In this document: positions 1,305 to 25,034 of the stretch, piece by piece | How positions within the stretch are numbered: the stretch's first letter is position 1 | How the letters are laid out: each line of letters begins with the position of its first letter | IMG/VR virus record: IMGVR_UViG_3300002488_000052 | Coordinates: 1-28,117 of that record | Direction: 5' to 3' (one strand) | DNA: 28,117 bases | Origin: a virus | The notes under the pieces: generated by a model | What the model saw: the letters and a program-made list of their open reading frames with translations, nothing else | Told to the model about the DNA's origin: nothing | The model's database searches: none | Position numbers and translations under genes: made by a program

Positions 1305-2483
1305 TCACTTAAGGTCTCTTATGCTCCCTTGTGCTCCGAAGAAAGTAGTCCATAGTTCTCCCATGGTTCTGTATAGCCCTTCTTGGCCCAATCTGTTTAT
1401 TGCGAATGGGTCACCAGTTTCGATGCCGCTTTCGAAGTATTGTGTTGGAATTGCTGTGCTGAAGTATAGATAGTCAGTATCTAGGTAGTACATTCTGCTG
1501 ATTCCATCAGGAAGCATATCCTTGGATGGAATGATTGGAACACCGTTGTATGTTGCTACGATGAATCCAGCCTCGATACCGGGTACACCCTTCACACCGT
1601 TGTATGTTGGGGTGATTCTCTTCTCTTCCATGAACCTCTGCTGGGATTGTAGCAGTTGCTGAATCCTCATTAGAGTGTCGTATCCAGTTAGGATGACTTT
1701 CGGGTTTCCACCACGTTTCCACATCTTTTGGAACATTTCGTCCATGATGTCTAGTGTTAGAACTCTTTGATTTCCTGCTGAAGCGTCTGCTCCACAGGAT
1801 ACTTCTGCATTTGCCCAATCGTTTGAACCTGCTGTCCTAGAAATCGAGTAGATGTCTAGGTCTCCTGCTGCATCGACGTGTGGTGTACCACCGCTTGTTC
1901 TTAATCCAGTCAAACCGTTGGTTGTACCGTCTGCTGCGGTCACTCTGTCTAGAGACTCGAAGTTGTTTCCTGCTTTATCGTTAACATCTGTTAAGAGCAT
2001 CTTGTTAACCATTTCAGCGTGGTGCTTACCCATCTCTTCTTTCATTACAGAGCGGATATCTCCCATTCCATCATCCTTGTCAGAAAGGAAGATAGCAGTT
2101 TCAGACATATCGAATGTGTGAGCGATTGTCTTTGGTTTTGCTGCTACATGCTGGAATTTTGGCCTAACTGTCTCAGGTAGTGTTGCGTTTTCTGCAACTC
2201 CGCCGTGTAGCGTACCGTCGTTGTTAGGTCTCTCGGTTATGACACGCCATCCTGACCTGTCCCAAGGTTTCTTTGGTAGTATAGAGAAGGCGTTGAACTC
2301 TTGGTTCAGTTGTGACCAAACTTTGCGCCCATAGATTGCTTGGTATGTACCAGCAGTCGTAGACAGCATAGGGCTGTCAGCCTTCAACAATTCGCTACCA
2401 CTGTATGAGTAGCCCATTGCGTTTCCTGCGCCATAGTAGTAGCGCTCCATGTCTGTTATTGTTCGTACGTAATTTCTTGCCAT
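1305..2483 (-). CDS. Major capsid protein, HK97-fold type
   Basis: This 392-residue protein is the predicted shell subunit of the virion. It lies directly downstream of the protease-scaffold gene and is followed by a decoration-like gene, the standard HK97 order. Visible features fit a capsid subunit: an N-terminal arm (residues 1-50), a segment with a hydrophobic start and a PKKPWDRSGWRV strand that resembles the E-loop/spine-helix entry, a long central region ending in the helix LTLDIMDEMFQKMWKRGG followed by PKVILTGYDTL (typical of HK97 A-domain sheets), and a C-terminal stretch YYLDTDYLYFSTAIP. The ATG has an excellent ribosome-binding site. I place it by context and fold-like pattern, not by a signature motif. 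Maturation may remove part of the N-terminus, since a protease is encoded next to it. Confidence 0.85.
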   Translation of the reverse strand: MARNYVRTITDMERYYYGAGNAMGYSYSGSELLKADSPMLSTTAGTYQAIYGRKVWSQLNQEFNAFSILPKKPWDRSGWRVITERPNNDGTLHGGVAENATLPETVRPKFQHVAAKPKTIAHTFDMSETAIFLSDKDDGMGDIRSVMKEEMGKHHAEMVNKMLLTDVNDKAGNNFESLDRVTAADGTTNGLTGLRTSGGTPHVDAAGDLDIYSISRTAGSNDWANAEVSCGADASAGNQRVLTLDIMDEMFQKMWKRGGNPKVILTGYDTLMRIQQLLQSQQRFMEEKRITPTYNGVKGVPGIEAGFIVATYNGVPIIPSKDMLPDGISRMYYLDTDYLYFSTAIPTQYFESGIETGDPFAINRLGQEGLYRTMGELWTTFFGAQGSIRDLK

Positions 2484-3967: not shown

Positions 3968-6900
3968 CTACGAGGCATTTTCGTTATACTGCTTGGCATT
4001 TCGTGCCATCTTTTTCCTTCTTCCCGGATAATCATCAGGTTTCTCGGGGTCTTGCTCCGGGCGCTCTTTCATATCCCAATCAGGAAGACTCTCCTCGGCT
4101 ATAAGGGACGTAGGGCCTCTAGGACTCTCAGTGCCATCTCCGACGTCTATGCCCAATCCCCTTCCTCCACTCATGGGGTAATGACCTGCGAAACCCTTGT
4201 CGAGTTTGTCTAGTGTCTTCTCTATCAGTAGCAGCGCCTTTAGTGTGTCCTTCGGTTTCAAGATTATGCTGCTGTCTTTCTTGGGTTTCAGTATCCCAGC
4301 GCTCTGATGCTCTATCCTGCGGGCGCGGTCGTCTGTCATACCATCATCAATCGCCTCGTCCTTCTCGCTTTTGAGGTATGCAAACCCATTCTCCCAGTAT
4401 GGTTGTAGGCTCTTCGCCAATCTCACTGAGTAGTTGGAGTCTGATATCGAGCCTATCGCTGCTACTGGATTAATTGGGCCTTCTTCGCTTATTTCGTACT
4501 TCACTAGGTCTTCGGGCAATTTTATTATGAAATGCTTCTCTTCAATCTCCATCGTGAAAGGAACATGGTACAATATATCCTCTTTTGCTAGCATCACCCA
4601 CTTTGGATGTTTCTCCTCCCCTTTCATGTAGGTTGACTTCGCATCCCTAAGTAAAATCATCTTGTTCTCCTTTCCTAGGGATTCTACCGCATTCTTCAGA
4701 CCTACCTCGTCTGTCACTCGTATATCTGATGGACTTGGCACATGTACTGGGTGATAACTATCGAACTGGCCTCTCAGTAACTTAACTCTCTCACGAGTGG
4801 TCAGTTCCATAACTTGGTCATTATCATACATGAGAATGTCTGTTATGAATAAATCACCATCCACTAATGTGGCATCTACGATGTAGTTTTTCTTACATGA
4901 CGAGCGTAATGAAGACCTCATCTCGTCGCTGGTGGATTGAACTTCACCATCTTCGTTTTCTAATTTTATATTGTTGCCCTTCTTGGTTACCTTGCATCTT
5001 ACGCCTTCTCTATGAGCAGAGACTACCCATTCTCCTGTGAATCCTCTCAATTGCGCCATATCTTCCAAATCGAATATCCTATGCATAGGTTCAATCAATG
5101 GTACTTCTTTAGGGACATCCGATTTACCAAATAACTGCCAATCGTTTTGATGAGGCATAGTTCCTTCAATACCGGGAGTATTCATAGGAGCACTGCCCAT
5201 AGGTTCATGAGAATCATATATCATCTGCATATGTTCGGGGCTGTGTGTATCTGAAAGCAACTGCTGTACAGAAGTTCTTGGAATGGGGTTGTAGTTAGTA
5301 GGTTGTGGATAATTGCCCACTACTGGCACACCTCCATCGAATTCTAGACCAAATTCCGCGATTCCCTCCTCACCTGTGTGCATTGCACCATCGTTTATCA
5401 CATCCATCGGCACTACTCCTTGTTGACTCTCTATCGAGGCTATCTTTGCATCTCGCCGCATTCCCACTCTGTTTTCAGTAACAGTAGGCATGTCAGAAGA
5501 TATCTGCTCAGGCACTGTTGCTGTGTCTAGCATCATGATGTGGCTGGCGATGTCTTTCACGCGATTATGCCTCTGCGCTTCTCTCCAACCTGTTGTACCT
5601 TCGAATACAGGATGTAAGAGCGTTTTACCGCTTCTAGATTCAACTTTGCCGCTCCTGCTCTTCTTCTGCTTGGGAGGCTCGTGTATTGCTAATCCATACG
5701 CATCTAGTTGTTTTTCGCTCACTGGTCTATTCCTCTCTGCTGTCTTGAAGTGATTGCCTATCCAAGATATAGCATTGTGTAGCGGTATTCTCTGTGCGAA
5801 TGTCTTCAATGCATTCTTTCTACCGGGGTCGTTGCTTCCCTTTGGCCAGTTCATCTTATCGTTCATCAATGCTGTATCCAGTGCATCATGTGTGCTGTCT
5901 AATCCTAATGCGGAACTGAACATGTCCGGGTTATCGTTGTTCCAAGGTACTCCAAGTCCTGCTAGTTTACCAAATGACATAGCGACTACATCCGAGTTCA
6001 GGCCGGATAGCCAATCCTTGACGTACTCTCGGTGAGCCTTATCTTTAGGTAGCCCTAGTTTCTCTAGGGTCATGTCTGCTTCTTGATTACTGGCATTTTG
6101 AATTGGGCTTATAGTATGCCCCTGTTTAACCGCGTCTTGCTGAAGCAATGTTGAGAGGGTTGAGAACTTGTTGCTCGTAGTATCCAATTCTACTTCTCTG
6201 TCCTCATAACCATGAGTCACTCCCCCGTCTCCTCCGGTATGGTGTAGAGAGCGTTGTGCACCGGATATCAGAGCATGGGCATTTAACAACGCTTTAGGAT
6301 TCTCAGGGTGAAAAGCAAGAGGAAACTTCTCTTCTATGATGGGTCTGAGTCTTTTGGCTTCTTCAATGACGGCATTGTGGTCTGATAGGAGCATTCTCTC
6401 TATTTCATTATTTACACCGAAATTCTGTGCGTCCATAGTGTCTCTTTCTGCTGCACTTCTCTGCTGAATCATTGTCCTGATTCTTTCTCCTATCTCTTGT
6501 AGTTGCCCTTTAGGAGTGTTAGGGTCATTAAGAGCCTCTTCAGCAGCCAGCAGTTCATCTTCGAAACCTTGCCCCATTGTGTCTATCGGTTTAGTGAACA
6601 TTGGTAGATTACCCATGACCTGACCAACGTCTAATCCTTCAGGCATCATTCTATCTGCGTTCTTGACGAATTGCGTAAATGGTATAATCGAGTGGATTGC
6701 GTCTTTCAAACCTCTGTTGACTCTACCATTCAACAATGACATCAAATGTGTTTGAGATGCATTTCTACTGATAGACACATCTCCTCCGGCTTCTCTTCTC
6801 CCTTTGTTTCCCTGCTTATTTCTTATTACGTTCGTCTCTACGTATGGATTATGATGAGAGAATGTGTTTTTAGATAAATCTAATTCTCTTTTTCTAGGGT

Positions 6901-9397
6901 GTATTTCTCTGTCTATTTTCATATTTTTAGGCAGACCGTTTTTAGTCTTCCTGTAAATTTCAGGATGTCTGCTGGATATGTGCATGTCACTTGAGTTCTT
7001 GATGTTCCTACCCCTACTTGTTCTTCCCGATGAGAAAGTATCTGTCTTAGCGGCTATACCGTGAGCGGTATGATGAGATTTCACTTTGCTAGGTAGGTAA
7101 TGAGGCATCAATTGAGATATGAGTCCAGTGGTATCGGATGACGGGTTGATTGAGCCGTCTCTAGTTTTGTCTCCAATCCATGATGACTCTCCCCCAACTA
7201 GATTAGAATATCTCTTTACTTTTAGAACCCCATCATCATCTATGACCTCTCTCGGCCTGTATTCAAACTTGGATGCATCCGCTAGGTGGTCGTGTATCAG
7301 TTCCGCATGGGTGGTTTTCTGCATGTTAGCACCGCTTCTATGGGTGAAGGGTTTGGAGAATGGCCATGCGAGACCTCTCAGTTTACCATTATCCTCATAG
7401 TAATGAGCGTGCTCTTCTTCAGGTAGTTCTTCTTTGTGAGGTGCGTTGATTCCAGTCCTATGTGCCATCATCGCATTTCTGATTGCTTTACTTCTCTTTG
7501 CAGCACCTACTCTGCTTTCTATTTCCTCTAGAACTGTATTCATTATATTCTTTGGTAACAGTGGCCCACTCTGTCCACCAAAAATTGGATGAAGGGAGTC
7601 TTGGCTTCCTACTAGTGCCAACAGCCCCTCCTTGCTGAGAAGAGCATCACTGTCTTTGCGAACCATTCCTTTGAGCGCTTGCTTCAAGTCCATTCCCTTG
7701 TTCATTCTTTCCAGTATTTTGTCCCTGTCTGATTGCTGGAATGGGAAGAGGTTTCGATTGTCCTTCTTCTTCTCAGGGTCTTCGTCCGCTGCACCGTGAT
7801 GTAGTAGGTCGTCTCCCTCGTACATCGCCTCTAGGTTCTCCATGAGTTCGTCGAATGCGGTATTGTCGAACATCTTGATTTTGTTGTCGTTGCTGTCGTA
7901 CTCGTAAGGCTCATCATTCCATATCTTACCGTCTTTGATGTATGTGCTTTTCAGGGCTGCTGACACAAATCCCTCATCTCCGCTAATTTGCACATCTTCA
8001 GGATTTTCGATATTGGCATGCACATTCGCTCCTGTGTATCCTTGTCTTCGTGAGAAGTAATCATCCTCAGCCCCGTTTCTATGCATGAAGTTCTTCTTGA
8101 TTCTAGTCATGCTTATCTTGTGACCGTCATCTAACTCAACGCTCTGATGTTTGGGATTGTCAGTACCGTACTTGTCTATATGGTCTAGAACCATGCTTCT
8201 CTCTTTCGGAGATAGAAACTCAAGACCGTAGTTGTACGTTTCCCATCCCATACCATGCGCATGCGTTTTGCTCACGGGGTCACCCATCAGTTCTCTCTTG
8301 GCTTCTTCTTCGTTTTCAAGCGGGGGTAATGTGATATCCATCAGTCTACCCATGATTTCCTCTTGGCTCGGCTCTTTACCGACTATTCCTTCTTCAGTCA
8401 CATTATGGCTGTCGAGCAGTTTCATTCTCCAATCGAAGTGAGCCTTCTCCATGTCCGTACCGGCTCGTTCCAGTTTGTCCAAGTCTCTGACGAATGCTTC
8501 TCTTTCTTCGTCTCCCTTGATATGAGTGCCTCTTCTCCATCTGTCCATGTCTCTCATTCTGAGAGTATGCTGATGCGTGGTCTCTTCTCCACCAGCAAAC
8601 GAGTATTTATGCCCCGGTCTGTCATGATGCATTCCTTTGTAGAATCCATGTTTGTGGGCTTCCTCTTCCTTTGTGTGGAACTCCTTGTGAGCATCCTCGA
8701 TTCCCATGGACTTCTCTGCTAGGGATTGTCCACCATTCTTATCGAAGTAGAAGTTTCTGAGCACGTGTTCCCATTCAGGCATATTGGTATCTGTTCTCCT
8801 CCTTCTAATTGGGTGGTGCTTTTCGCTGAATGGGTCTACATCGAGATAGTGACCCTGTTGTATTTGCTCGCTATCTGATTCCGTTGGTTCTGTAATTAGG
8901 GTCTCGGGGTTGTCTCTGTCTAATTTGTATGTGAATGGTGTTATTTCAGGCCAAAGCCCGTGCCTCATCTCTCTAGGAATTTCATTCTCCTTGAGGTGGT
9001 CTGAGGCTGTTTGTCCGGGTTTCTGCTCTGAGTGAAATTTGTATCCGTGCTTCTTGTTATCCGCTTTTGTCCAATGCCTCTTGACTCTACCCTCATATGC
9101 GTGCATTGCTGGTATGGGCATCAGCATGGCAGGACGATAGTCGGCCATCGGGTTACCTTGGCTTCCGCCTTCGCCCCCGCCTTCTTGCTTCAGTATGAAA
9201 TTACTGTAAGAGAGACAGATTATATCCTCGTCTCTGAGTTCGTATTCTATATTATGGTTTTTTAGATTAATAGTAGATAGTAGAAAATCGCCTACTTCCT
9301 GAGATGGGTCTGAACCGTTGTATATTGCTTTCAAGAGTTCATCCCGGTGTCTCAGATAGACATCGACTGAATCCTCTCGCATATCATCACCGCTCAT
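3968..9397 (-). CDS. Giant 1809-aa virion-associated protein with degenerate DNA-ligase-like C-terminal domain
   Basis: Most of this protein is unrecognised: it is hydrophilic, rich in His, Asp, Glu and Lys, largely helical and free of membrane segments. Residues about 1435-1610 follow the ATP-dependent DNA ligase adenylation domain in order. There is an EPMHRIFDLEDM lead-in, a motif I position reading HREGVR (1462-1467) where active enzymes have KxDGxR, KKGNNIKLENEDGE, a motif III/IIIa region (IVDATL at about 1506, then FITDILMYDNDQVMELTTRE) and a motif IV/V-like ILLRDAKSTYMKGEE with PKWVMLAK (K1587, W1600). The nucleophilic lysine is replaced by His and the motif III Glu by Thr, so it is probably catalytically dead. 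The gene lies between the portal cluster and the protease-scaffold, which suggests an internal or injected virion protein. Its ATG overlaps the upstream stop (ATGA). A second ATG five codons on has the better-placed ribosome-binding site. Confidence 0.8.
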   Translation of the reverse strand: MSGDDMREDSVDVYLRHRDELLKAIYNGSDPSQEVGDFLLSTINLKNHNIEYELRDEDIICLSYSNFILKQEGGGEGGSQGNPMADYRPAMLMPIPAMHAYEGRVKRHWTKADNKKHGYKFHSEQKPGQTASDHLKENEIPREMRHGLWPEITPFTYKLDRDNPETLITEPTESDSEQIQQGHYLDVDPFSEKHHPIRRRRTDTNMPEWEHVLRNFYFDKNGGQSLAEKSMGIEDAHKEFHTKEEEAHKHGFYKGMHHDRPGHKYSFAGGEETTHQHTLRMRDMDRWRRGTHIKGDEEREAFVRDLDKLERAGTDMEKAHFDWRMKLLDSHNVTEEGIVGKEPSQEEIMGRLMDITLPPLENEEEAKRELMGDPVSKTHAHGMGWETYNYGLEFLSPKERSMVLDHIDKYGTDNPKHQSVELDDGHKISMTRIKKNFMHRNGAEDDYFSRRQGYTGANVHANIENPEDVQISGDEGFVSAALKSTYIKDGKIWNDEPYEYDSNDNKIKMFDNTAFDELMENLEAMYEGDDLLHHGAADEDPEKKKDNRNLFPFQQSDRDKILERMNKGMDLKQALKGMVRKDSDALLSKEGLLALVGSQDSLHPIFGGQSGPLLPKNIMNTVLEEIESRVGAAKRSKAIRNAMMAHRTGINAPHKEELPEEEHAHYYEDNGKLRGLAWPFSKPFTHRSGANMQKTTHAELIHDHLADASKFEYRPREVIDDDGVLKVKRYSNLVGGESSWIGDKTRDGSINPSSDTTGLISQLMPHYLPSKVKSHHTAHGIAAKTDTFSSGRTSRGRNIKNSSDMHISSRHPEIYRKTKNGLPKNMKIDREIHPRKRELDLSKNTFSHHNPYVETNVIRNKQGNKGRREAGGDVSISRNASQTHLMSLLNGRVNRGLKDAIHSIIPFTQFVKNADRMMPEGLDVGQVMGNLPMFTKPIDTMGQGFEDELLAAEEALNDPNTPKGQLQEIGERIRTMIQQRSAAERDTMDAQNFGVNNEIERMLLSDHNAVIEEAKRLRPIIEEKFPLAFHPENPKALLNAHALISGAQRSLHHTGGDGGVTHGYEDREVELDTTSNKFSTLSTLLQQDAVKQGHTISPIQNASNQEADMTLEKLGLPKDKAHREYVKDWLSGLNSDVVAMSFGKLAGLGVPWNNDNPDMFSSALGLDSTHDALDTALMNDKMNWPKGSNDPGRKNALKTFAQRIPLHNAISWIGNHFKTAERNRPVSEKQLDAYGLAIHEPPKQKKSRSGKVESRSGKTLLHPVFEGTTGWREAQRHNRVKDIASHIMMLDTATVPEQISSDMPTVTENRVGMRRDAKIASIESQQGVVPMDVINDGAMHTGEEGIAEFGLEFDGGVPVVGNYPQPTNYNPIPRTSVQQLLSDTHSPEHMQMIYDSHEPMGSAPMNTPGIEGTMPHQNDWQLFGKSDVPKEVPLIEPMHRIFDLEDMAQLRGFTGEWVVSAHREGVRCKVTKKGNNIKLENEDGEVQSTSDEMRSSLRSSCKKNYIVDATLVDGDLFITDILMYDNDQVMELTTRERVKLLRGQFDSYHPVHVPSPSDIRVTDEVGLKNAVESLGKENKMILLRDAKSTYMKGEEKHPKWVMLAKEDILYHVPFTMEIEEKHFIIKLPEDLVKYEISEEGPINPVAAIGSISDSNYSVRLAKSLQPYWENGFAYLKSEKDEAIDDGMTDDRARRIEHQSAGILKPKKDSSIILKPKDTLKALLLIEKTLDKLDKGFAGHYPMSGGRGLGIDVGDGTESPRGPTSLIAEESLPDWDMKERPEQDPEKPDDYPGRRKKMARNAKQYNENAS

Positions 9398-10715: not shown

Positions 10716-12440
10716 TCATGCGCCTCTTAAGCGTCTTGCGTTCAATAATGCGCGACTATTGTTCTGCGCTTGAGAATTTTCAGGCCCTCGCTGTTGTACC
10801 GATGATACTGGTGCTCCGCTGCCGAATGATGTTCGATTCTGAGGAGATGCTGGCCCTCTCGGTGTTCTGATGCCCATTCCCTCTCCTCCGGGTTGCGATG
10901 GTGGCATCATTCCGGGTGGAATTGCGCCCATCTGAGCACCCATCGCACCTGCTGTCGCTGCACCCGGCAATCCGGGTGGTGGTGTCATTCCGGGAGGCAT
11001 TGGTGGTGGGCCGTCTTGCTCAGGGTTTATTTCTCTGTAAGTGAATCTTATGTCCCTGTCTCCCTGCTCCATGAGTTCAGGCTTGTACCCTAGCATAGCC
11101 ATTCTCTGCGCTAGGTTGACTTCCATCTCATCTCTTCGTAGGCGAGTTATCTCATCTTCCTCCTCGTTCGGATACAGAGTTATTTTCCAATCAGTCACGT
11201 CCATCTGCTTTAGCATCCTAGGAAATAGAACTTGAGTGTACACTTTCTGTCCAAATTCAACTGCTCTGTTGGTTACGAGTATCTGCATTCCTTCGTTATT
11301 AAGACCGCCGCTCTTACCGCTGTCTACCATGAAGATGCTGCTGACACCGTAGAATGCCGCTATTCTGTTTCTCATCTCATCGCGAACTGCGATATACTGC
11401 ATTTCTTCTAGAGTATCCATGAACTTGACCCAATTCACTCCACCACGTCCGGTTGAGGATTCTATGCCAACTTTAGGAATGTAGTGAGGGTCTCTCTCCA
11501 TCTTCTCATCGACTGATTTCCAAAACGACTTCATCGATTCTAGGTTATCGGTGGTGACAGAGATGATTCCTTTCGGACTTCTTCTCTTCTGATATGCGGT
11601 GTACATGTAGTTGTCCATCGCTGTGAGTGTCATCGCCTGTCTCCACATCGTGTTGACCGGGCTTCTACCGTAGAGTTTGGATGGGTTGTACTTACTCAGA
11701 TGAATTACCTCGCCTTCCAAGTAGTACTGTGTTTTTCCACTACCGGCCATATTGGCATAATGAGCCTCCTGCATATTATTACCGCACACTTCGCACTTGT
11801 CGTCTTGGCCGGGGTACGATACTTGGTCTCGATGTAGTGGACACACTTTGTATCTACCACCACGTACTCCCCTCTTGTCTGAGATGATTCTCATGAAGAT
11901 AGGGTCTGCTCTGATAATTTCTTTAACTTTGAAGAACTGTATCTGTGACGTTTCGGGTTCTACGTAATACTCTTTGATGAGAATCAAGAATGCATCATCT
12001 ACCACATTCAAGTCTCTTTCAATCTCAAACAGAACATGCATGAAGTTCTGCTCCATTGAGTTGACTTGTTCCAATAGATACTTTGGGTAGATGAGTTGGT
12101 TCACATCAGGCGCTCTAGTAGGAGAGCCACATAGATTGCATTCATTGACATCGTGATTATACTCTTCACCGCAACCAGTGCATTTCTTTTGGAACTTCTT
12201 CTCCCAGTAGTATCCTCTCCTAAAAATCTCCTGACTGAGTTTGGCAAGCACCGTTCTCAATATGAGGTTCTCTTGAGAGACTGCGTATAATGCTGGTAAT
12301 GTGATACCTTGTGCTAGAACTGGCTCTTGTATACCAGTTGTATACAGAGGCATTTGCGGCTCAGGAGTGGTTCTGCTGCGAAATGGGCTGCTTATAGCAG
12401 ACAAAAATCGTCCTACTGGGCCTTTTTCTTCATCTGCCAT
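10716..12440 (-). CDS. Portal protein with two inserted zinc-binding loops
   Basis: This is the predicted dodecameric vertex through which DNA is packaged. Portal-like features include the stretch EGEVIHLSKYNPSKLYGRSPVNTM (split by the usual loop; residues about 242-264), the helix-rich stem (TAYQKRRSPKGIISV), FYGVSSIFMVDSGKSGGLNNEG and a Pro/Gly-rich disordered C-terminus. Its gene follows those for the terminase and the LAGLIDADG protein. Unusually, it carries two zinc-ribbon-like insertions: C87-x2-C90...C101-x2-C104 and C200-x2-H203...C216-x2-C219. I start it at the ATG that overlaps the upstream stop (TAATG at 12440), which has AGAGG about seven bases upstream. A start six codons earlier, at 12458, is possible. 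It is 574 residues long, within the usual portal range. Confidence 0.88.
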   Translation of the reverse strand: MADEEKGPVGRFLSAISSPFRSRTTPEPQMPLYTTGIQEPVLAQGITLPALYAVSQENLILRTVLAKLSQEIFRRGYYWEKKFQKKCTGCGEEYNHDVNECNLCGSPTRAPDVNQLIYPKYLLEQVNSMEQNFMHVLFEIERDLNVVDDAFLILIKEYYVEPETSQIQFFKVKEIIRADPIFMRIISDKRGVRGGRYKVCPLHRDQVSYPGQDDKCEVCGNNMQEAHYANMAGSGKTQYYLEGEVIHLSKYNPSKLYGRSPVNTMWRQAMTLTAMDNYMYTAYQKRRSPKGIISVTTDNLESMKSFWKSVDEKMERDPHYIPKVGIESSTGRGGVNWVKFMDTLEEMQYIAVRDEMRNRIAAFYGVSSIFMVDSGKSGGLNNEGMQILVTNRAVEFGQKVYTQVLFPRMLKQMDVTDWKITLYPNEEEDEITRLRRDEMEVNLAQRMAMLGYKPELMEQGDRDIRFTYREINPEQDGPPPMPPGMTPPPGLPGAATAGAMGAQMGAIPPGMMPPSQPGGEGMGIRTPRGPASPQNRTSFGSGAPVSSVQQRGPENSQAQNNSRALLNARRLRGA

Positions 12441-13582
12441 TATATCGCCTCTGCCCACTTCGTTACGTCGTCAGCCTGTACGCCCCACTCGTCTAGGAGG
12501 GCGGTGGCCTTCTTGGTATCATCGCTCCAATTGTAGTATCTCACTACTTTGAGCAACTCGTTCTTTCGCAAGGAATCATCTTCTTGTATGAATGCTAATA
12601 CTGCTTTGGCTTGGGTTTTCTTCATCTCTAGGAATGGTAGGATGCCCTTCAGCAGTTTGGATATGTCCGCTTTGGAGTAGAACTGCAATCGATGCTGGCT
12701 TCTCTGAGTATCACTGTATATCTTTTGGTCTAGTTGCAGAATCCCACATCCCAGTGTTTTCTGCAATTGCTCGCAGTGTATCTTGCCTCTACTGCCTGTT
12801 GCTATGAATCCTGCTCTTGGCTCTCCTCTTTTTGTGATTGTTATGTATCCATCTGCATCTAGGAATCCAGCAGCATACGCCCAAGGGTCTTTGATTATCA
12901 ATCCGGTCTTATCCATCTTGACAAAAGTACCACGACTGTTACCGCTTATGACATCGACTTCCTCGCCATACATCGATAGTAGTTTAGATAGTTTAGTGGA
13001 TGTCATGCTTTTGTGCAGTACTCCCTGCTCCATGAGTTCCTCGTGAATGGTTCTACCTGTCATTTCACCTCTATGTTGTAGTAATTCTGCTGTTTTCTGT
13101 ATGGATTCCTGCTCTTTGTCTGTTAGTCTGTCCATTTGCTTGAGGGTGCTCTTCCATATTTTTCTAGCATCCCTCTTGGATTGCATGGCATCCACCCAAG
13201 ACTTCTTTTCCTCATCTCCCCAAACATCCTCATATTCATTTAGCATCTTCAGAGTGTCATCTGCTTGCTCCCATTGATGACAGGCTCTTTGCAGACTCAC
13301 TCTCCTGCTATCTCCAAATTTTCTAAGGGCTTTCAAGTCGTTATCGTTGATACCTATGTCTCTTATTGTATCTGAGTATTTCAAACACCAGTCGTGCATC
13401 TTCAAGGTTGCTTCCATCTCCATCGATTTCAATGACCTTATGTCGTTTATCGCTTTGTCTATGAAATCTTTCTCATCCTTGTTGTGCCTTCTAACGTTTT
13501 TTAGCCTCTTCACTAAATCAGTTGCAGAATAGCCCAAGTTAGTTTCAAACCACCCTTCTCCATTTGCGGGAAAAGCACTCAT
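12440..13582 (-). CDS. Winged-helix plus LAGLIDADG protein between terminase and portal
   Basis: The protein has about 380 residues. Residues 1-170 are helical and unrecognised. Residues about 173-230 look like a winged helix (MTGRTIHEELMEQGVLHKSM, then TKLSKLLSMYGEEVDVI). Residues about 236-340 form a single-motif LAGLIDADG domain: AAGFLDADGYITI, with the metal-binding Asp (D244) present, followed by the beta-rich half and a GILPFLEMKKTQA helix. Free homing endonucleases usually sit in introns or inteins. Here the domain is fused to other parts and occupies the slot where HK97-type phages often carry an HNH protein that aids DNA packaging. A role in genome cleavage or as a small-terminase substitute is therefore possible. 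ATG 13582 has GGAGTGA upstream; a GTG at 13594 is the alternative. Confidence 0.78.
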   Translation of the reverse strand: MSAFPANGEGWFETNLGYSATDLVKRLKNVRRHNKDEKDFIDKAINDIRSLKSMEMEATLKMHDWCLKYSDTIRDIGINDNDLKALRKFGDSRRVSLQRACHQWEQADDTLKMLNEYEDVWGDEEKKSWVDAMQSKRDARKIWKSTLKQMDRLTDKEQESIQKTAELLQHRGEMTGRTIHEELMEQGVLHKSMTSTKLSKLLSMYGEEVDVISGNSRGTFVKMDKTGLIIKDPWAYAAGFLDADGYITITKRGEPRAGFIATGSRGKIHCEQLQKTLGCGILQLDQKIYSDTQRSQHRLQFYSKADISKLLKGILPFLEMKKTQAKAVLAFIQEDDSLRKNELLKVVRYYNWSDDTKKATALLDEWGVQADDVTKWAEAI

Positions 13583-13639
13583 GTTACTTATCACTCCAAA
13601 ATGTCGTATTCTCGTTATGCGATTCTATGTAAGTATTAT

Positions 13640-15115
13640 TCATGGTATCATCCAGTTCCCTTTGCTTCCGCCGCTAACCCAAGAATCGAAGCCGGGCATG
13701 TAATCGTCTAGTAAGACGACGCTTCCCTTGAACTCCTTAGATGCCCAATTAGCCAAAGCCAAACTCATAGCCAAGTCATCATGCACACCCACACTCTCCA
13801 GTTTTCCATTCTTCTGCATACCGAATCTGTTGAGTTCTTCCTCAAGCAGATGCGTGTACTTCCTGCTACGCTCGTCTCCATATGGGGTTTTTATATTACC
13901 CTGCTCGAAAGCCAGTAATAGAGACATAAAAAGCGATTCTTTCTTGGTTCGCGTGGTCATGAAAACTCTGATTGGCATATCGGATGCCATCTCTCTCATC
14001 TCCTGTTCAAGCATTCTTTGGAAGTTGTTACCCTCAAGTTCTATCAGTTCAGGCGTGAACTTGTTGTTCAGCATGACCATCATTCTCTTCTGAGCCATGG
14101 ACGACATGCCTCTTTGATGAACGACATGCACTATCTCTTTCATCTGCTCATCGGGTTTGATTCTCATGACGGTCATCGCTGTGAAGTCAGCGTTCTTGTC
14201 AGATGCGATAGCGGGGTCATGACCGATGAAGTGCTGTCCGAAGACGCCATCTGCTTCACCTTCCTCGTTGTAATTGGTCTCAGCCCTGTCTATCATTACT
14301 AGATTAGGGTCTCTAGCAGCCTCCAGTATGCTCATTGGGAACATACTCGCTACGTCATGTATTGGCTCACACAGGTATTCACGTGTGAATTGTATCGCTG
14401 GCATGGACATTCGCCTCTCATCCAAAGCCTCCTTATTCCACCTCTCAGGCCAAAGAGCGACACCTTCAGCATTGATAGCCGGATAAGTTTCTACTCTAAA
14501 CGTATCTTTCTGCTCCAACTCAGCATACAGGTCGTTGTAACTGAATGGTGTTCCGACCATCATCAGTTTGCTGCTGTGGTGAAGAACAGGTAGAAGAACA
14601 CCATAGAACCAATCCGCCGTCTTGGCTAACTCGCTTGCAGTCGTTCCCCATAGAATATCATCGCACACCACGACGTCGGGGTGGAAACCACGAGTCGCTC
14701 CCCCAACTGATTTTGCCATCATACGACTTCCGTTGGAGAACTCAAAGTATGATTTAGCCCAAGGCTTGCCTTGAGGTTTGAGATGCCTGAGTTCATCATG
14801 CCCTTCTATCAAGTTGCGAACAAACCTCATGTGCTCAAGGGTCTGCTCAAGAGAATGGGAGAAAATCATGATGTGCTTACCGGGATTAAATGCTGCGAGC
14901 CATAATGCATATGTCATGAAGAATACGGACTTTCCGTGGTCACGAGACGCTTTCACGCAATAATACTGCGATTCCTCAAGACCCTCTTTCCAAGAATCAT
15001 GATGATGATTGTACATGAATCCTAAAATATCCACGAAGAAATATTTGAATGACTTCCTGCACATCTCCCTGTCTGTGTTCAGGATGAACTCACGCATCTC
15101 CTCGTTCGTCTTCAT
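13640..15115 (-). CDS. terL: Terminase large subunit (packaging ATPase/nuclease)
   Basis: This 491-residue motor protein pumps DNA into the prohead and cuts the concatemer. The ATPase half shows a deviant Walker A (ASRDHGKS, 56-63), a Walker B with acidic pair (DVVVCDDILW, 147-156) and the coupling motif VGTPFSYNDLY (187-197). The RNase H-like nuclease half shows its acidic residues in FIGHDPAIASDKNADF (D300), ELIELEGNNF (E361) and SVGVHDDLAMSLALA (D446/D447). All expected motifs are present, so it should be active. Its ATG overlaps the upstream stop (ATGA), and the LAGLIDADG and portal genes follow, the usual packaging order. Confidence 0.96.
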   Translation of the reverse strand: MKTNEEMREFILNTDREMCRKSFKYFFVDILGFMYNHHHDSWKEGLEESQYYCVKASRDHGKSVFFMTYALWLAAFNPGKHIMIFSHSLEQTLEHMRFVRNLIEGHDELRHLKPQGKPWAKSYFEFSNGSRMMAKSVGGATRGFHPDVVVCDDILWGTTASELAKTADWFYGVLLPVLHHSSKLMMVGTPFSYNDLYAELEQKDTFRVETYPAINAEGVALWPERWNKEALDERRMSMPAIQFTREYLCEPIHDVASMFPMSILEAARDPNLVMIDRAETNYNEEGEADGVFGQHFIGHDPAIASDKNADFTAMTVMRIKPDEQMKEIVHVVHQRGMSSMAQKRMMVMLNNKFTPELIELEGNNFQRMLEQEMREMASDMPIRVFMTTRTKKESLFMSLLLAFEQGNIKTPYGDERSRKYTHLLEEELNRFGMQKNGKLESVGVHDDLAMSLALANWASKEFKGSVVLLDDYMPGFDSWVSGGSKGNWMIP

Positions 15116-19534: not shown

Positions 19535-19947
19535 TAATGGTCTACCCCCGCATAGTCACAAGATATTGAAAGAACCATTCTACCTAGTTCCTCATAGAAC
19601 CTCCCAATAGAAGCAGGTTGTTGAAACCTACTCTTCATGTAGCAGCAGTATTCCATAAATTCATAGCATGATTCTCTGATTGACTCTCTCAGTTCGAATA
19701 CGTCTTCAGGCTCATCGGTCTCTGATATAGCCTTCAAGCAGTCAATGACCTTCATGAGACTGTTCTCAGACACTATGATATCTGAAAGTGTAAAGGAGTG
19801 CTCGTTAGCATGTTTTTTGAAAGTGTCACATACTCTAACGCAATAATCGAAGAATACAGGATGATAAACTTCCTGCATGCTATCTCCTAAACAGAACGCT
19901 CGATAACCGGGATGGTGTTGTTGCATGAGGTCACCGACTGGTATCAT
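19534..19947 (-). CDS. Unknown helical 137-aa protein
   Basis: The sequence is helical throughout (LMKVIDCLKAISETDEPEDV; FELRESIRESCYEFMEYCCY), with eight cysteines scattered rather than in C-x2-C pairs, so metal binding is not obvious. It overlaps the candidate small-terminase gene upstream by four bases and the 460-aa gene downstream by one base. The tight coupling to the zinc-HTH protein suggests the two may act together. Function and family are unknown. Confidence 0.62.
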   Translation of the reverse strand: MIPVGDLMQQHHPGYRAFCLGDSMQEVYHPVFFDYCVRVCDTFKKHANEHSFTLSDIIVSENSLMKVIDCLKAISETDEPEDVFELRESIRESCYEFMEYCCYMKSRFQQPASIGRFYEELGRMVLSISCDYAGVDH

Positions 19948-20639
19948 ACCTGCTCCTCCATCTCCGCCTCTAACTTAGACTTAATCCTCTTCCAACTCTC
20001 AGGGCTTTCCTTGGCAATCTCTACTTGCAGGATGTTTATCGTCTGATTCACTTGAGAACCTTCACCCATTGTACCCCATTCTTGCTGAACCTTAGTCAGG
20101 TCTTTGATTGTCTCACGAACTTCCTTATGGAGAGTGACTGCGTTTCTCACGAAACCCTCATCATGGACATCCCCCTCGTCCATCAATTCTGTCAGTTTAC
20201 TGTTCAGTTTCCCAACATTGCTTCTCAAGACGTTTATCTCATTGCCTACAGTAATAGCCACAGTAGTTGCTGCTGATTTCTGAACTAGAGGTTGGAAGTG
20301 ATGCTTCATGTGATGGTAGACTGTAGCCTCTTTTATCCCCAGTTCTTCCGCTATTGCATCGGATTGCGACCCATCTGAGAAGAACCTCTCTTCATACTCG
20401 CTTCTCTTCTCGCTGGTGCATATGACGCAGGAGGGGTTGGATGCCATGTGATACTGACCCATGTGATTTCTGAAATGGCGGTCTGCTGTATTAGCCCTCC
20501 ATCCCATGTCCTTGTCTATCTGAGTACATGACATTTCACCGTTAGTGATGGCTTCTTCTAGAGTTTCTCTCATGTCGCTTTGACAGAAAGAACAAGACCG
20601 TTTCATCACTGGCTGCCGCTCAACCATGCAGGATGCCAC
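19944..20639 (-). CDS. Duplicated zinc-HTH DNA-binding protein, candidate small terminase
   Basis: The N-terminal half contains two similar modules. Residues 16-60 have CSFCQ, a helix-turn-helix (CTQIDKDMGWRANTADRHFRNH) and a His pair (H55, H59). Residues 71-114 have CVICT, a helix-turn-helix (AIAEELGIKEATVYHHMKHH) and a His cluster. Each could hold one zinc as CxxC...HxxxH. Residues 125-205 form a coiled coil (INVLRSNVGKLNSKLTELMD), and the C-terminus is a charged helix. DNA-binding N-terminus, oligomerising coiled coil and C-terminal helix is the plan of small terminase subunits, and the gene lies upstream of the large subunit, though four genes away. A transcription regulator is the alternative. 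GTG 20639 is the longest start; ATG at 20627 or 20606 is also possible. Confidence 0.68.
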   Translation of the reverse strand: MASCMVERQPVMKRSCSFCQSDMRETLEEAITNGEMSCTQIDKDMGWRANTADRHFRNHMGQYHMASNPSCVICTSEKRSEYEERFFSDGSQSDAIAEELGIKEATVYHHMKHHFQPLVQKSAATTVAITVGNEINVLRSNVGKLNSKLTELMDEGDVHDEGFVRNAVTLHKEVRETIKDLTKVQQEWGTMGEGSQVNQTINILQVEIAKESPESWKRIKSKLEAEMEEQV

Positions 20640-20663: not shown

Positions 20664-20921
20664 CTAAAGACCACGAGTTATTCTCTGATAAATCTGAGTC
20701 AAGAGAATAAAAGAAACAAAGATTCCAACCATGTATATGCTCATGTCAGATTGGCTTATATCGCCATTCTTGAAAATGAGTATTCCCATGAATACTAGAA
20801 TTGCACTGATAAGTTGAACCATCACCATATCGACTACTACTTGCCTCTTCGGTGAGAAGAAATGCATTGACATATTTGCTACTTGTCTTGGTATTAGGTT
20901 ACTTGGGTCGTTGTTCATCAT
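20664..20921 (-). CDS. Small two-helix membrane protein (85 aa)
   Basis: Two membrane segments are visible: about residues 29-50 (VVVDMVMVQLISAILVFMGI) and 61-80 (IYMVGIFVSFILLTQIYQRI), joined by a short polar loop (FKNGDISQSDMS). Small two-helix proteins in viruses can be holins, envelope or membrane-docking proteins. No lysis enzyme is visible nearby, so holin is only one option. Its ATG overlaps the stop of the Met-rich 229-aa gene by one base. It is one of three short membrane proteins flanking the GTPase gene. Confidence 0.7.
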   Translation of the reverse strand: MMNNDPSNLIPRQVANMSMHFFSPKRQVVVDMVMVQLISAILVFMGILIFKNGDISQSDMSIYMVGIFVSFILLTQIYQRITRGL

Positions 20922-21610
20922 TATGCTCTACCTCCGAATAGCATGTTCCTCATAAAAGAACCACCTGCTTCTGCTGCTCCTGTCATTAGACCGGGGTCAG
21001 ACATTGCGTTTGCCAACTGCGCTTGCAGCATGCTGTTGCTAGCATTTTGCATAGTCTGCATTTTTACCGCATTTGCTTGGTTGATTACTTGAGTTAGTTG
21101 AGCATTCATCGATGCCAGTTGTGCGCTTACGTTCTCAGAACTCATCGTTTGTAGTTCTACTGGTAATGACGATACGTCCAATGAGAACTTTCCAGCATCT
21201 TCATCGAATGTGTAAGTTGCGTTCTTCATCAGGTTCAATACTGAGAATGTGGTTATCATACCCATCATCTCAAGTAGTTGACTGAAAAAGGGTGTAGCCA
21301 AGAAACGCTCTACTGGATATGCGTTATCTAACATCGTCATGAGTATCTCAGTATCGCTTGGTGGTAATACCGCTTGTTGCTGATAGGGGTCTTGCCCAGT
21401 GAATCCTGATAACATCGCATTCATCATAGAAGGTTGCTGTTGCATACCTCCCATCATAGGATTCATTCCGCTTTGTGGTTGCATTCCCATTCCTGCGCCC
21501 ATACCCATATTAGGTAATGCGTATGGATTTCCCATGTTGGTCAAAGGTGCTCCCGATTGACTTAGGTTAAGGCTCAAACCGTTGTTTTGGTAAGGATTTC
21601 CCATGCTCAT
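20921..21610 (-). CDS. Met/Gln-rich 229-aa protein, unknown
   Basis: The first 75 residues are low-complexity Met/Gly/Gln/Asn/Pro with a repeated MGNPY. Residues about 80-135 form a helical, fairly hydrophobic core (RFLATPFFSQLLEMMGMITT, then FSVLNLMK). The rest is a long Ala/Gln/Asn-rich amphipathic helix (QLASMNAQLTQVINQANAVK). It has few charged residues and no recognised family. The gene overlaps its upstream and downstream neighbours by four and one bases. The low-complexity head resembles that of the zinc-binding protein encoded just upstream (Gln/Met/Asn), so the two may assemble together; this is speculative. Confidence 0.65.
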   Translation of the reverse strand: MSMGNPYQNNGLSLNLSQSGAPLTNMGNPYALPNMGMGAGMGMQPQSGMNPMMGGMQQQPSMMNAMLSGFTGQDPYQQQAVLPPSDTEILMTMLDNAYPVERFLATPFFSQLLEMMGMITTFSVLNLMKNATYTFDEDAGKFSLDVSSLPVELQTMSSENVSAQLASMNAQLTQVINQANAVKMQTMQNASNSMLQAQLANAMSDPGLMTGAAEAGGSFMRNMLFGGRA

Positions 21611-22596
21611 TGTTGTGCCTCCATGTTCATCTCAGGTGTGACGGGAAGGGGTGGGGTGTTTTGGTGTTGTTGGTGCATAGCCGCTTGCTGTCTTAACACG
21701 TCTTGGAACGCTGGGGTGGGATTCGCCATCTCAAGGAGTTCCTGTTTGAACATCCGATTATCGAAGGTGATGACGGTCAAGTCGTTCTCCTCGGTCTGCG
21801 GATTAGTATAGAACTGTACATTTATGCCTTTAGACTTTCTAGAATCAGCCATAATCTCCGCAAAGAATGATTCATATTTCGATACCATAGGATGCGCTGG
21901 TGCTGTACTAGTCGCTGCTGCAATCGGCACACTCACTATACTGACCCCTTTTCTCACTTTATCTCTGAATCTACTGGGTTTCATCTCGTCTTCCCTATCT
22001 TGCTCAGCCTCCCATTTACATAGCAGATGGTACAGATGGAGGTGCTCGGGGCAATATGTTGCTCTGAGTTTTCTACCGCTAGTGACTCCTTCTCTTGCTA
22101 CGAAGGCTTCAGGCTCGCCAGTTACTGGGTTTTGCCAATATAGTTCCCATAGGCTCTTGCCGGTGTCTTCATCACATATCTTTGCGTATAGATTGTCGTG
22201 CTGTATAAGTTCCATGACATTGCAGCCATCCACGCAGCAGACTGCTGTGTCCTTGTTATACCTGTATTTGCTTATCCATCTTCTTGGGTCTAGTATAGAC
22301 CTCTTTGTGGGTTTGAGTAGTCTGTATGCCTGTTTGATGTCCTTTCTTCTTGCTTTTCTAGGGTCAGGATGTCTAGAAGGGTAGAAGTTCACCTTGGGCA
22401 CTTCTAGGTTTCTTTGAATTGCTATCTGCTGCATTTGCTGCTGTGCGGCGGCTTGCTCAAGCAAAGCAGCGTGTGTGAATTGAGGGTTGCCTTGTTGGGC
22501 TAGAGCCATTAGAGTGGCTTCATTCATTGAGCCGAGTGTTTGTTGCTGTTGTTGGTTAGCAAATGGGTTTACCGCGTTCATTACCATGTTAATCAT
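21607..22596 (-). CDS. Zinc-binding 329-aa protein with Gln-rich N-terminus
   Basis: Residues 1-65 are Gln/Ala-rich and probably disordered or coiled. Residues 68-115 are basic (RHPDPRKARRKDIKQAYRLL). Residues 119-195 hold a metal-binding candidate, with VCCVDGCNVM (C120, C121, C125), a Cys at 141, and YCPEHLHLYHLLC (C182, H185, H187, H190, C193). The C-terminal third has the pattern VITFDNRMFKQELLEM and a Pro/Gln-rich tail. The basic patch plus zinc site suggests nucleic-acid or phosphate binding. The gene overlaps the AbrB-like gene by eight bases. The first ATG has a poor ribosome-binding site; ATGs at codons 4 or 6 are better spaced from AGGATGA. Confidence 0.65.
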   Translation of the reverse strand: MINMVMNAVNPFANQQQQQTLGSMNEATLMALAQQGNPQFTHAALLEQAAAQQQMQQIAIQRNLEVPKVNFYPSRHPDPRKARRKDIKQAYRLLKPTKRSILDPRRWISKYRYNKDTAVCCVDGCNVMELIQHDNLYAKICDEDTGKSLWELYWQNPVTGEPEAFVAREGVTSGRKLRATYCPEHLHLYHLLCKWEAEQDREDEMKPSRFRDKVRKGVSIVSVPIAAATSTAPAHPMVSKYESFFAEIMADSRKSKGINVQFYTNPQTEENDLTVITFDNRMFKQELLEMANPTPAFQDVLRQQAAMHQQHQNTPPLPVTPEMNMEAQQ

Positions 22597-22774
22597 CCTG
22601 TGGGGTGACGATTATGGACATTCCCCCATTTTCCACATGGATGTTCCAATTTATCTTATCTCCTGATTTCAATCCAAATTGTTCTATAATCCACATTGGA
22701 ACAGTAGTTCTAAGAGAATTACTGCCCCCTGTTGAGACTAAAGATGTAGTGGAACTCCCCCTCGCCATGTGCAT
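22589..22774 (-). CDS. AbrB/SpoVT-like DNA-binding protein
   Basis: This 61-residue protein matches the swapped-hairpin AbrB pattern: SLRTTVPMWIIEQFGLKSGD followed by KINWNI and a closing strand (MSIIVTP). The key features are a T-x-P turn, then I..xFGLKxGD. AbrB-type proteins dimerise and bind DNA as regulators or antitoxins, and they are especially common in archaea. No toxin is visible beside it; its neighbours are the GTPase gene 37 bases upstream and the zinc protein downstream. It could bind the palindrome at 24474-24505, but nothing in the sequence shows this. ATG at 22768 (codon 3) is an alternative start. Confidence 0.8.
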   Translation of the reverse strand: MHMARGSSTTSLVSTGGSNSLRTTVPMWIIEQFGLKSGDKINWNIHVENGGMSIIVTPQDD

Positions 22775-22811: not shown

Positions 22812-23522
22812 TCAATAATCTATCATATCCATTAGAGACTGTTCTACGTTCCAACCTATCCTAGTTGCCATGAAGTTTCTCTGAGTCGGTATTCCCGCTT
22901 TTTGTAAACGAATCAAGTCGTCTCTGAACGGGTCGAATATCTTATGTTCTGCTATTCTACCCTCTTGCCAAAGTTGAGCGGCTTTCTTGTCGAAGAACCT
23001 ATCAGCCTTGTTAGCAACAAGCAAGACTAGTCTAGGGGCATATTTCTTACCTTTCCACCAACTCTTCATGTTTCTATATCTATATTGCCTCTGTATCAAT
23101 GAGTCAACTAGGAATCTGAATCCTCCTATTTGGTCGATTCCTTGACCTGCAAATGCTCTATCATCGAACATGAAAACCACATATTCACATTGTCTAGCGA
23201 CCATATCATCTATCCATAGATTCCAAAATCGGTCTTCACCACCGATATCAGCAGAATGCACTACTCTTCTTTCGCCTTTGTATCTGAGTCTCTTTCTAGT
23301 TGGTTTAGGTAGAATGTACCTAGTTAGTAATTTGAAGTGGTCTGTTCTTTCGTCAATCGCTATTTCTTCCATCTCACCGGGAGTCGTCATGTATCTGTCG
23401 AGAGTGGTTTTACCAACCATGCTAGCCCCATATATGCCTACACGCCTAGATTTCCAGTTATTGTATATCTGCTGTCCCCATAGGGCTGCGCCAACCAGTG
23501 CACTTCCTGCCATTGCAGCCAT
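22812..23522 (-). CDS. Membrane-anchored small GTPase (Ras/Arf/SR-beta-like)
   Basis: Residues 1-20 are a hydrophobic anchor (AMAGSALVGAALWGQQIY), and the rest is a single GTPase domain. G1 is GASMVGKT (32-39), G3 is DIGGEDRF (D92-G95), close to the DTAGQERF of Ras-like proteins. G4 is NKAD (171-174), after the strand LVLLVA. G5 may be ATR (219-221), after NFM. The residue after the G3 glycine is Glu instead of the usual Gln, so intrinsic hydrolysis may be altered. The N-terminal anchor plus Arf-like domain resembles the signal-recognition-particle receptor beta subunit. A small GTPase is unusual in a tailed virus. It is encoded just after two small membrane proteins, with a six-base gap, which suggests a membrane complex. 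Confidence 0.85.
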   Translation of the reverse strand: MAAMAGSALVGAALWGQQIYNNWKSRRVGIYGASMVGKTTLDRYMTTPGEMEEIAIDERTDHFKLLTRYILPKPTRKRLRYKGERRVVHSADIGGEDRFWNLWIDDMVARQCEYVVFMFDDRAFAGQGIDQIGGFRFLVDSLIQRQYRYRNMKSWWKGKKYAPRLVLLVANKADRFFDKKAAQLWQEGRIAEHKIFDPFRDDLIRLQKAGIPTQRNFMATRIGWNVEQSLMDMIDY

Positions 23523-23528
23523 AAGGCA

Positions 23529-23816
23529 TCAACTCACCAAATTAATCAGCCAATTACCCAAATCTCTCAGTTGCTGGTATGACCATTCGACAGTCCATTC
23601 CCAAAGCGAGAAGTCGCTATTGGTTTCTATTGCAGATACTGCTAGAGCAGCACCGACTGAGCAGAGTAAGGTTCGTATCCAACCGATTCCCCATTCATAT
23701 GTATTATCCACTGTATTTGCTAAATGCATTGCTCTGAGCGTTTCCTCAACGGAATCGTCTTTCACATTACGAAATATTCGTATGGGCGAGGGTATGAGTT
23801 GTCCGGGTAGCACCAT
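23529..23816 (-). CDS. Small membrane protein (95 aa) next to the GTPase
   Basis: One membrane segment lies at about residues 45-62 (GWIRTLLCSVGAALAVSA), preceded by a polar helix (DDSVEETLRAMHLANTVDN) and followed by a Trp-rich amphipathic region (SLWEWTVEWSYQQLRDLGNW) that could lie on the membrane surface. No family is recognised. Its start overlaps the upstream stop as TGATG, and the GTPase gene follows after six bases. The three proteins (194, 95 and 236 aa) are therefore made in a chain and are all predicted membrane-bound. Confidence 0.7.
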   Translation of the reverse strand: MVLPGQLIPSPIRIFRNVKDDSVEETLRAMHLANTVDNTYEWGIGWIRTLLCSVGAALAVSAIETNSDFSLWEWTVEWSYQQLRDLGNWLINLVS

Positions 23817-24400
23817 CAGTTACCGCCACGCTTCGCCTTATATCTTAAATCCGGCGACCCGTCCTTTTTTCTAGGAATGTCTTTTTTGGTGTCATCTGTC
23901 GCCTTGTTCATACCTAGATTCAGAGGTTTCTCGTTCTCAGCATTGTGTAGAGGTATTCCGGGATTGAACGTATTGTGATAATCAACACCAGTACCGCTGA
24001 CAGCAGAGCCATTGAAACCATTGCTTATTCTAGATGGGTCTGCTTGGAGCATCCTTAGTTCATTCTCCAACTGCATCTCTTGTACTCTGAGTTCCAAATC
24101 CATTCTTCTTTGGTCGAATCCCATCTGCTGGCTTCTGAACTGCTCAGACCTCTGCCTCTGCATTTCCGCTATTTGCACCTTTTCCTTCATTCCTTGCTCA
24201 AAGAACATCTTGAATATGTAGTACGCTATTGTTTGAACAGCCAATGCTCCCATAGCATACGTCATGCCGTTTATCGTTGAGTCAGCATCACTTCCAGTAG
24301 GAAGCCATAGCCCTGCACTGAATACTCCAACTGCTATCCCTACTAATGCTGACTGGGCCAAAATAAGCCCCGTCATTTTCATCTCATCTGTGTCGCTCAT
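23816..24400 (-). CDS. Two-helix membrane protein with coiled coil (194 aa)
   Basis: Two membrane segments are visible, at about residues 9-33 (MTGLILAQSALVGIAVGVFS) and 44-66 (GMTYAMGALAVQTIAYYIFK). A long coiled coil follows at about 70-125 (MKEKVQIAEMQRQRSEQFRS; LELRVQEMQLENELRMLQ), with a polar, basic tail. The build suggests a membrane-tethered spacer or scaffold. It is the first gene after the only regulatory gap on this strand, and its ribosome-binding site GAGGT, seven bases before the ATG, lies inside the 3' arm of a hairpin. It is probably the first gene of the GTPase transcription unit. Confidence 0.72.
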   Translation of the reverse strand: MSDTDEMKMTGLILAQSALVGIAVGVFSAGLWLPTGSDADSTINGMTYAMGALAVQTIAYYIFKMFFEQGMKEKVQIAEMQRQRSEQFRSQQMGFDQRRMDLELRVQEMQLENELRMLQADPSRISNGFNGSAVSGTGVDYHNTFNPGIPLHNAENEKPLNLGMNKATDDTKKDIPRKKDGSPDLRYKAKRGGN

Positions 24401-24519: not shown

Positions 24520-24681
24520 TTATCGTACAAAGACCATTTTACTTACGCTTTGCTGTGCATGCAGTAGTTTGTAGCATGGGCATTTTGGCGCTCTAGGGGA
24601 ACATTGTCTACCTAGTTCCATGCATTTGCATGGGTTCTTGCTAGTAGCACCACAACAGCACTTGTCTTTCTTAAGAGCCAT
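24520..24681 (-). CDS. Cys-rich microprotein (53 aa)
   Basis: The start ATG overlaps the stop of the upstream gene as TAATG, and the frame ends at TAA. The product begins MALKKDKCCCGATSKNPCKC and continues with CS and CPCYK motifs, giving eight cysteines in 53 residues, with CCC, C-x-C and C-x-C spacing. This is metallothionein- or zinc-cluster-like. The tight overlap with a gene whose product is also small and Cys-containing supports it as a real gene. Function unknown; metal binding is inferred from the cysteines. Confidence 0.65.
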   Translation of the reverse strand: MALKKDKCCCGATSKNPCKCMELGRQCSPRAPKCPCYKLLHAQQSVSKMVFVR

Positions 24682-25034
24682 TAGCAGTTCCACCTTTTCA
24701 GTGCTGCACCTTTCGGGGTTAGTTTGCCATCCTTGCTGGTTGGCCCTTTACTGCCGCCCATTCTAGCGCAGAATGATTTTCTCCTCTTCGCTGCTTTGCT
24801 TCCGGGTTTGAGTTTCGAAGGTTTCTTGGTGACTGGCCTCTTCAGGTTAGCACCTGTTTCCCTCTTGAACTTTGCACGCCCTGCTGCATTGAGACCGCCG
24901 CTTCTGCTGTGTCTCTTGGGATTATAACCGTGGAAGGGCTTTGACTTGCTCTTCTCAAACATGGAATCCATCAATGACATAGTGGCTTGTTGCATAGGTG
25001 TGCAACAGTCGCATGTGTCTGTGGACATGCTCAT
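24681..25034 (-). CDS. DUF6321-like small basic protein
   Basis: This 117-residue protein has an N-terminal Cys cluster (TCDCCTPMQ). Its conserved C-terminal half contains SGGLNAAGRAKFKRETGANL, then KRRKSFCARMGGSKGP and KLTPKGAALKRWNC. I recall this pattern as DUF6321 (named from memory), found in marine phages and viruses and in some giant viruses, with no known function. It is strongly basic. Its ATG overlaps the upstream stop (ATGA). It lies next to a DUF5872-like gene; such short basic proteins often cluster in marine viral genomes. Confidence 0.78.
   Translation of the reverse strand: MSMSTDTCDCCTPMQQATMSLMDSMFEKSKSKPFHGYNPKRHSRSGGLNAAGRAKFKRETGANLKRPVTKKPSKLKPGSKAAKRRKSFCARMGGSKGPTSKDGKLTPKGAALKRWNC

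Follow-up and report, generated by a model that had tools for sequence, protein, structure and literature searches.

The locus and its virus

The window, by which we mean the whole stretch of DNA analysed, is a 28,117-base virus record from IMG/VR and represents a fragment. Terminase, portal, protease and capsid genes lie on its minus strand in one co-directional cluster, which also contains an open reading frame of 236 codons running from an ATG at position 23522 to a stop at 22812 (Table 1). Read on the plus strand, the same interval contains 10 stops. We refer to this open reading frame as the GTPase gene. An earlier reading, made from the letters alone (the sequence-only reading), had placed it inside a tailed-virus structural module, and its position in a co-directional late/structural cluster bears this out.

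The window's capsid protein is related to those of HVTV-1 and other tailed viruses of haloarchaea (Table 1). The twelve relatives of 92-118 kb all encode a family B DNA polymerase (PolB) and a Cpn60_TCP1 chaperonin (12/12 for both), the window itself being only a 28-kb fragment. The magrovirus family Aoguangviridae is described with the same pair of genes (PMC10768690), and Poseidoniales are the hosts of magroviruses (PMC10160649, PMC10768690). We conclude from the capsid, PolB and chaperonin genes that the window derives from a tailed virus of the magrovirus type. Its host is presumed, from the magrovirus literature, to be Poseidoniales archaea.

Gene order around the GTPase gene is strongly conserved. 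In nearly all of 152 loci, the genes for the 194-aa and 95-aa proteins, the GTPase, the 61-aa protein (where present), and the 329-aa, 229-aa, 85-aa and helix-turn-helix proteins follow one another towards TerL, and exceptions are mostly at contig ends. Two of these neighbours, the 194-aa and 85-aa proteins, have transmembrane segments by KD19 hydropathy. In the 329-aa protein, C120, C182 and H185 are found in 50/50 relatives and C125 in 44/50. A GAP-like fold was considered for this protein and rejected, its model having no recognisable PDB match (none below E 1.6 with Foldseek). The 61-aa AbrB/MazE-like gene (22589-22774), directly downstream of the GTPase gene, overlaps the next gene.

Table 1 Features of the window that bear on the GTPase gene, in order of position
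Feature	Position	Strand	Basis
Major capsid protein, Druskaviridae-related	1305-2483	-	phrog_24667 E 4.2e-56; HVTV-1/HCTV-1/HCTV-5 at about 32% identity over 99% of length
Terminase large subunit (TerL)	13640-15115	-	Terminase_6C E 1.5e-10; phrog_38 E 2.1e-62; anchor for prevalence test
231-aa helix-turn-helix protein, conserved, syntenic; candidate small terminase (putative role)	19944-20639	-	HTH_20 E 6.8e-7; gene order
85-aa protein, two transmembrane segments, syntenic	20664-20921	-	KD19 2.65 and 1.82; gene order
229-aa Gln/Met-rich protein, syntenic	20921-21610	-	Gene order
329-aa protein, C120-x4-C125 ... C182-P-E-H185, probable zinc site	21607-22596	-	Conserved residues; closest always-present downstream neighbour
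61-aa AbrB/MazE-like protein, in only part of the clade	22589-22774	-	PF04014 E 5e-5, just below cut-off; gene order
Predicted Ras/Arf-like small GTPase gene, 236 aa	22812-23522	-	Open reading frame; family alignment; AF2 and Foldseek; weak small_GTP/Roc/Arf profile matches
G5-like MAT, residues 218-220, after last strand; compare CAT in Arf1	22863-22871	-	Invariant in 117 relatives; preceded by AF2 strand 213-217
G4 NKAD, residues 171-174	23001-23012	-	Invariant in 117 relatives
G3 DIGGE, residues 92-96; catalytic-Gln position is 96	23235-23249	-	D92, G95 invariant
Candidate G2 (switch I) Thr60	23343-23345	-	Invariant in 117 relatives; assigned from spacing
G1/P-loop GASMVGKTT, residues 32-40	23403-23429	-	G37, K38, T39 invariant wherever sequenced, 117 relatives
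N-terminal helix, residues 2-23; about 12 hydrophobic residues (AGSALVGAALWG), then KxRR	23454-23519	-	AF2; putative membrane contact
95-aa protein, directly upstream of the GTPase gene (6-base gap), syntenic	23529-23816	-	Gene order; no transmembrane window over threshold
194-aa membrane protein, probable coiled coil (judged by eye), syntenic	23816-24400	-	KD19 1.94 at residues 9-27

GTP-site motifs are invariant across the family

The G1, G3 and G4 motifs quoted in the sequence-only reading are present (GASMVGKT, residues 32-39; DIGGEDRF, 92-99; NKAD, 171-174), and their core residues do not vary. Among 117 non-identical relatives, G32, G37, K38, T39, T60, D92, G95, W100 and W103 are invariant wherever sequenced, as are N171-K172-A173-D174 and M218-A219-T220. 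In the aligned sequences G1 reads GxxxxGKTT, G3 reads DxGG, and G5 is an Arf-like MAT. The NKAD motif predicts specificity for guanine. Compared with its two nearest relatives, the gene gave dN values of 0.04-0.05, with dS values of 1.6-2.3 that are near-saturated or saturated. A six-frame search of the twelve 92-118 kb relatives with the NCBIfam small_GTP profile picked out the GTPase gene in 10/12, below the cut-off. Given the invariance of the motifs, the dN/dS values and the selection of the same gene by small_GTP, we conclude that the GTPase motifs are not due to chance.

Position 96 corresponds to the catalytic Gln of Ras and Arf. The sequence-only reading had taken Glu at this position as a distinctive change, but the family alignment does not sustain this: Gln is commonest (67 of the 117 relatives, with Glu in 39, Asp in 9 and His in 2), and at least 8 changes among these four residues are required on the GTPase family tree. 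Hence, Glu is a recurrent state rather than a mark of the window's protein. Position 96 is never hydrophobic in the 117 relatives. Sar1 likewise departs from Gln at the catalytic position.

The predicted fold is Ras-like, and profile matches are weak

An AF2 model of the GTPase (pLDDT 72.7, pTM 0.73) has a Ras-like order of strands and helices, with G1 after strand 1, G3 at the end of strand 3, G4 after strand 5 and G5 after strand 6. When the model was compared with the PDB using Foldseek, all 50 matches listed were Ras/Rab/Rac/Rho-type GTPases (best E 3.9e-7, prob 1.00), with target-normalised TM-scores of about 0.5-0.6. Among viral structures, giant-virus Rab/Ran-like proteins matched best, and there was no tailed-virus GTPase among the best 50 matches. 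Structure prediction, which the sequence-only reading had put forward as a check, thus came out in favour of a small GTPase.

Profile searches, the other check put forward, gave a mixed outcome: small-GTPase families were matched, but every score fell below the curated cut-off. In a Pfam scan of 37 family members, Roc reached a best E of 0.001 and Arf a best E of 0.02 (12/37), all under cut-offs; at E 10 the Arf profile matched nothing in the window. The best small_GTP E in per-protein scans was 0.002, and all small_GTP matches with a reported bit score lay below the 42.5-bit cut-off. Profile comparison of the GTPase family with HRAS gave a probability of 91, and with ARF1 a probability of 25, each from a single comparison with a hand-entered sequence. 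A single-sequence search of the PDB returned chance matches only. Since no curated family cut-off in Pfam or NCBIfam was reached, a cut-off being a recognition threshold and not a structural feature, the small-GTPase assignment is founded on the motifs and on a medium-confidence model. Together, motifs and model confirm, at the level of prediction, that the product of 22812-23522 is a diverged small GTPase of the Ras superfamily, which would bind GTP.

We also considered an acyl-CoA dehydrogenase-like local match, seen in NCBIfam scans of 5/37 members (best E 4.2e-6) and in the PDB at E 0.46, and judged it to be probably a local chance similarity. When six members were rescanned singly, the best-scoring one being left out, there was one such match (E 0.16, residues 112-169).

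Likeness to known small GTPases

The viral protein shares with the Ras superfamily (Ras, Rab, Rac/Rho) the order of G1, G3, G4 and G5, the beta-alpha topology, the Foldseek matches and the profile similarity to HRAS. It differs in falling below curated cut-offs, in having an extra N-terminal helix, in long insertions at switch I and between strands 4 and 5, and in its own invariant TPGEM and WNLW blocks. Arf/Sar1 proteins offer further parallels: DxGGQ with a Trp at +7 from the catalytic position (W103 aligns to Arf1 W78, the Arf1 Gln being Q71), MAT compared with CAT at G5, and a helix ahead of the G domain. However, the viral protein lacks Gly2, and its Arf profile score is weak.

ArvA is a small GTPase that drives vesicle formation in haloarchaea (PMC10927574). 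In general features it resembles the viral GTPase: an archaeal setting, an N-terminal helix and a zinc-type protein encoded nearby (ArvC beside ArvA; PMC10927574). However, none of the neighbours scanned in the viral locus carries an ArvB (DUF2073) or ArvC (DUF2072) domain. Similarly, no roadblock domain (MglB-type) was detected in ten neighbours scanned. The Rab/Ran-like GTPases of giant viruses, the top viral structural matches, are also virus-encoded small GTPases, but they come from viruses of eukaryotes and are named as Rab, Ran or Ras.

A single-copy core gene inherited with the terminase

Searches of viral contigs identified 118 relatives with one protein query and 205 with an alignment query. 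Consistent with the sequence-only reading that such GTPases are rare in tailed viruses, tblastn against 50,697 phage records returned no relative with the GTPase protein and no match at E 0.01 with ARF1; the ARF1 query matches four plasmid records. Two related archaeal viruses, HVTV-1 and a Methanofastidiosa virus, had no match to the GTPase family profile or to small_GTP. We found no literature linking magroviruses with GTPases, although tables of the founding magrovirus paper or of a 2025 paper on Poseidoniales viruses may contain an earlier annotation.

In 84,980 cellular genomes the GTPase had two matches, both on contigs with the window's viral gene order; the scans were based on short conserved peptides, so that more distant GTPases of cells would escape them. 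The two contigs were assigned to a Maricaulis MAG (L160) and a Cytophagaceae MAG (L161); because they share the viral gene order, we read them as viral contigs binned with bacteria.

Among TerL-anchored loci with at least 9.3 kb upstream, the GTPase was present in 48/48 and 23/23 (71/71 in all); since both TerL queries came from GTPase-bearing genomes, this prevalence says nothing about more distant magroviruses, and the TerL-anchored and GTPase-anchored sets share many contigs and so are not independent samples. Each of the twelve 92-118 kb relatives carries one copy. Median pairwise identity is 62.6% for the GTPase, 68.1% for TerL and 33-51% for the neighbours, and GTPase identity correlates with TerL identity (r = 0.92). 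We conclude that the GTPase is a single-copy core gene of the magrovirus-type viruses sampled, inherited in step with the terminase. The suggestion of a captured host regulator is not supported as a recent event, given that the gene is universal in the sampled clade, tracks the terminase and is matched in cellular genomes only within viral gene order. An ancient capture from a host may have taken place.

The N-terminal helix is not clearly a transmembrane anchor

The sequence-only reading had likened the N-terminus to the membrane anchor of the SRP receptor beta subunit. Its KD19 maximum is 1.11, and by hydropathy 0/37 family members reach the transmembrane threshold of KD 1.6; AF2 confidence is low at residues 1-6 of the helix. 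The N-terminus is therefore better described as a short hydrophobic helix that is not clearly a transmembrane anchor, and because no member reaches the hydropathy of a membrane span, it may just as well lie peripherally or insert shallowly as form an anchor.

A possible membrane-associated switch in virus assembly or exit

We propose that this core GTPase of magrovirus-type viruses acts in late assembly or exit as a GTP switch associated with the membrane, a reading to which we give a probability of about 0.45. The protein would bind GTP and, along with the small membrane proteins encoded next to it, would contact the cytoplasmic membrane through its N-terminal helix. Late in infection, the GTP cycle might then recruit or order virion parts at the membrane, or remodel the membrane for exit. 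The N-terminal helix, the neighbouring genes and the cluster are the grounds on which we infer membrane association, a GTP cycle and a role in assembly or exit. The best candidate for a partner or regulator is the 329-aa protein with the probable zinc site; having no recognisable fold, it is only a candidate for the latter.

A Ras-like GTPase might instead act on host pathways, as an agonist or decoy of a host small-GTPase system (ArvA-like vesiculation or protein targeting) rather than as an assembly factor. Haloarchaea make vesicles via ArvA (PMC10927574), and the 63 near-invariant residues of the GTPase suggest tight protein partners. However, a gene that sits in a late co-directional cluster beside terminase and capsid genes, and that tracks the terminase closely, has more in common with morphogenesis genes than with accessory genes for host takeover, and we regard a host-directed role as unlikely. 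We extend the same low credence to a structural protein of the virion or of its assembly, in which nucleotide binding would be retained chiefly to aid folding or assembly and turnover would be low. The gene's place in the structural cluster and the drift of the catalytic position among Q, E, D and H would both fit such a protein. Against it, the P-loop, DxGG, NKAD and the candidate Thr of switch I are invariant and position 96 is never hydrophobic, which suggests selection on nucleotide chemistry.

Targeting of viral membrane proteins to the membrane by an SRPRB-like or similar GTPase seems improbable. The hydrophobic N-terminus and the synteny with small membrane proteins are in keeping with it, but hydropathy gives no transmembrane anchor in 37/37 sequences and the Pfam matches of the 37 members include no SRPRB family. 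Least credible of all is a generic packaging or replication P-loop ATPase, the alternative that the sequence-only reading had itself set against a GTPase. Although a P-loop close to terminase genes invites this assignment, it is strongly disfavoured by the invariant NKAD and DxGG, by Foldseek matches that, among those listed, are small GTPases, and by a profile comparison of the family with the window's TerL that gave a probability of 0.3 (single comparison).

The membrane switch, if it exists, would have wider meaning. In eukaryotes, membranes are organised by small GTPases of the Ras/Arf type, as they are in some archaea by ArvA. Here, a switch of this kind, known from cells and essentially unknown in tailed viruses, appears fixed beside the capsid and packaging genes of common marine viruses whose hosts are probably archaea; if our reading is true, tailed viruses too can depend on a small-GTPase switch. 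A stronger version, which we advance tentatively and consider doubtful as a whole, is that a Ras/Arf-like membrane switch, dedicated to this task and passed on vertically, is essential to abundant tailed viruses of archaea when their virions assemble or leave the cell. Small GTPases are not known to serve in this way in any tailed virus, and such a use might shed light on how GTPases remodelled membranes early in archaea. The GTPase, its membrane neighbours and its zinc-site neighbour form a compact, testable system for virus assembly at, or exit from, the archaeal cell.

Other genes of the window

Three further minus-strand genes were noted. The product of 24681-25034 is a DUF6321 protein (E 3.7e-17), with further matches to the C-terminal ends of several PHROG families whose function is unknown. 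Between terminase and portal, 12440-13594 encodes a 384-aa protein whose C-terminal part is homing-endonuclease-like (phrog_5046 E 1.5e-7, weak LAGLIDADG); in HVTV-1, an HNH gene follows the terminase. An 1809-aa protein is encoded at 3968-9397, between the prohead protease and the portal region, and resembles DNA ligase weakly near its C-terminus (E 0.013); it may be compared with a 1313-aa HVTV-1 gene, annotated as a zeta toxin, between head-assembly and protease genes.
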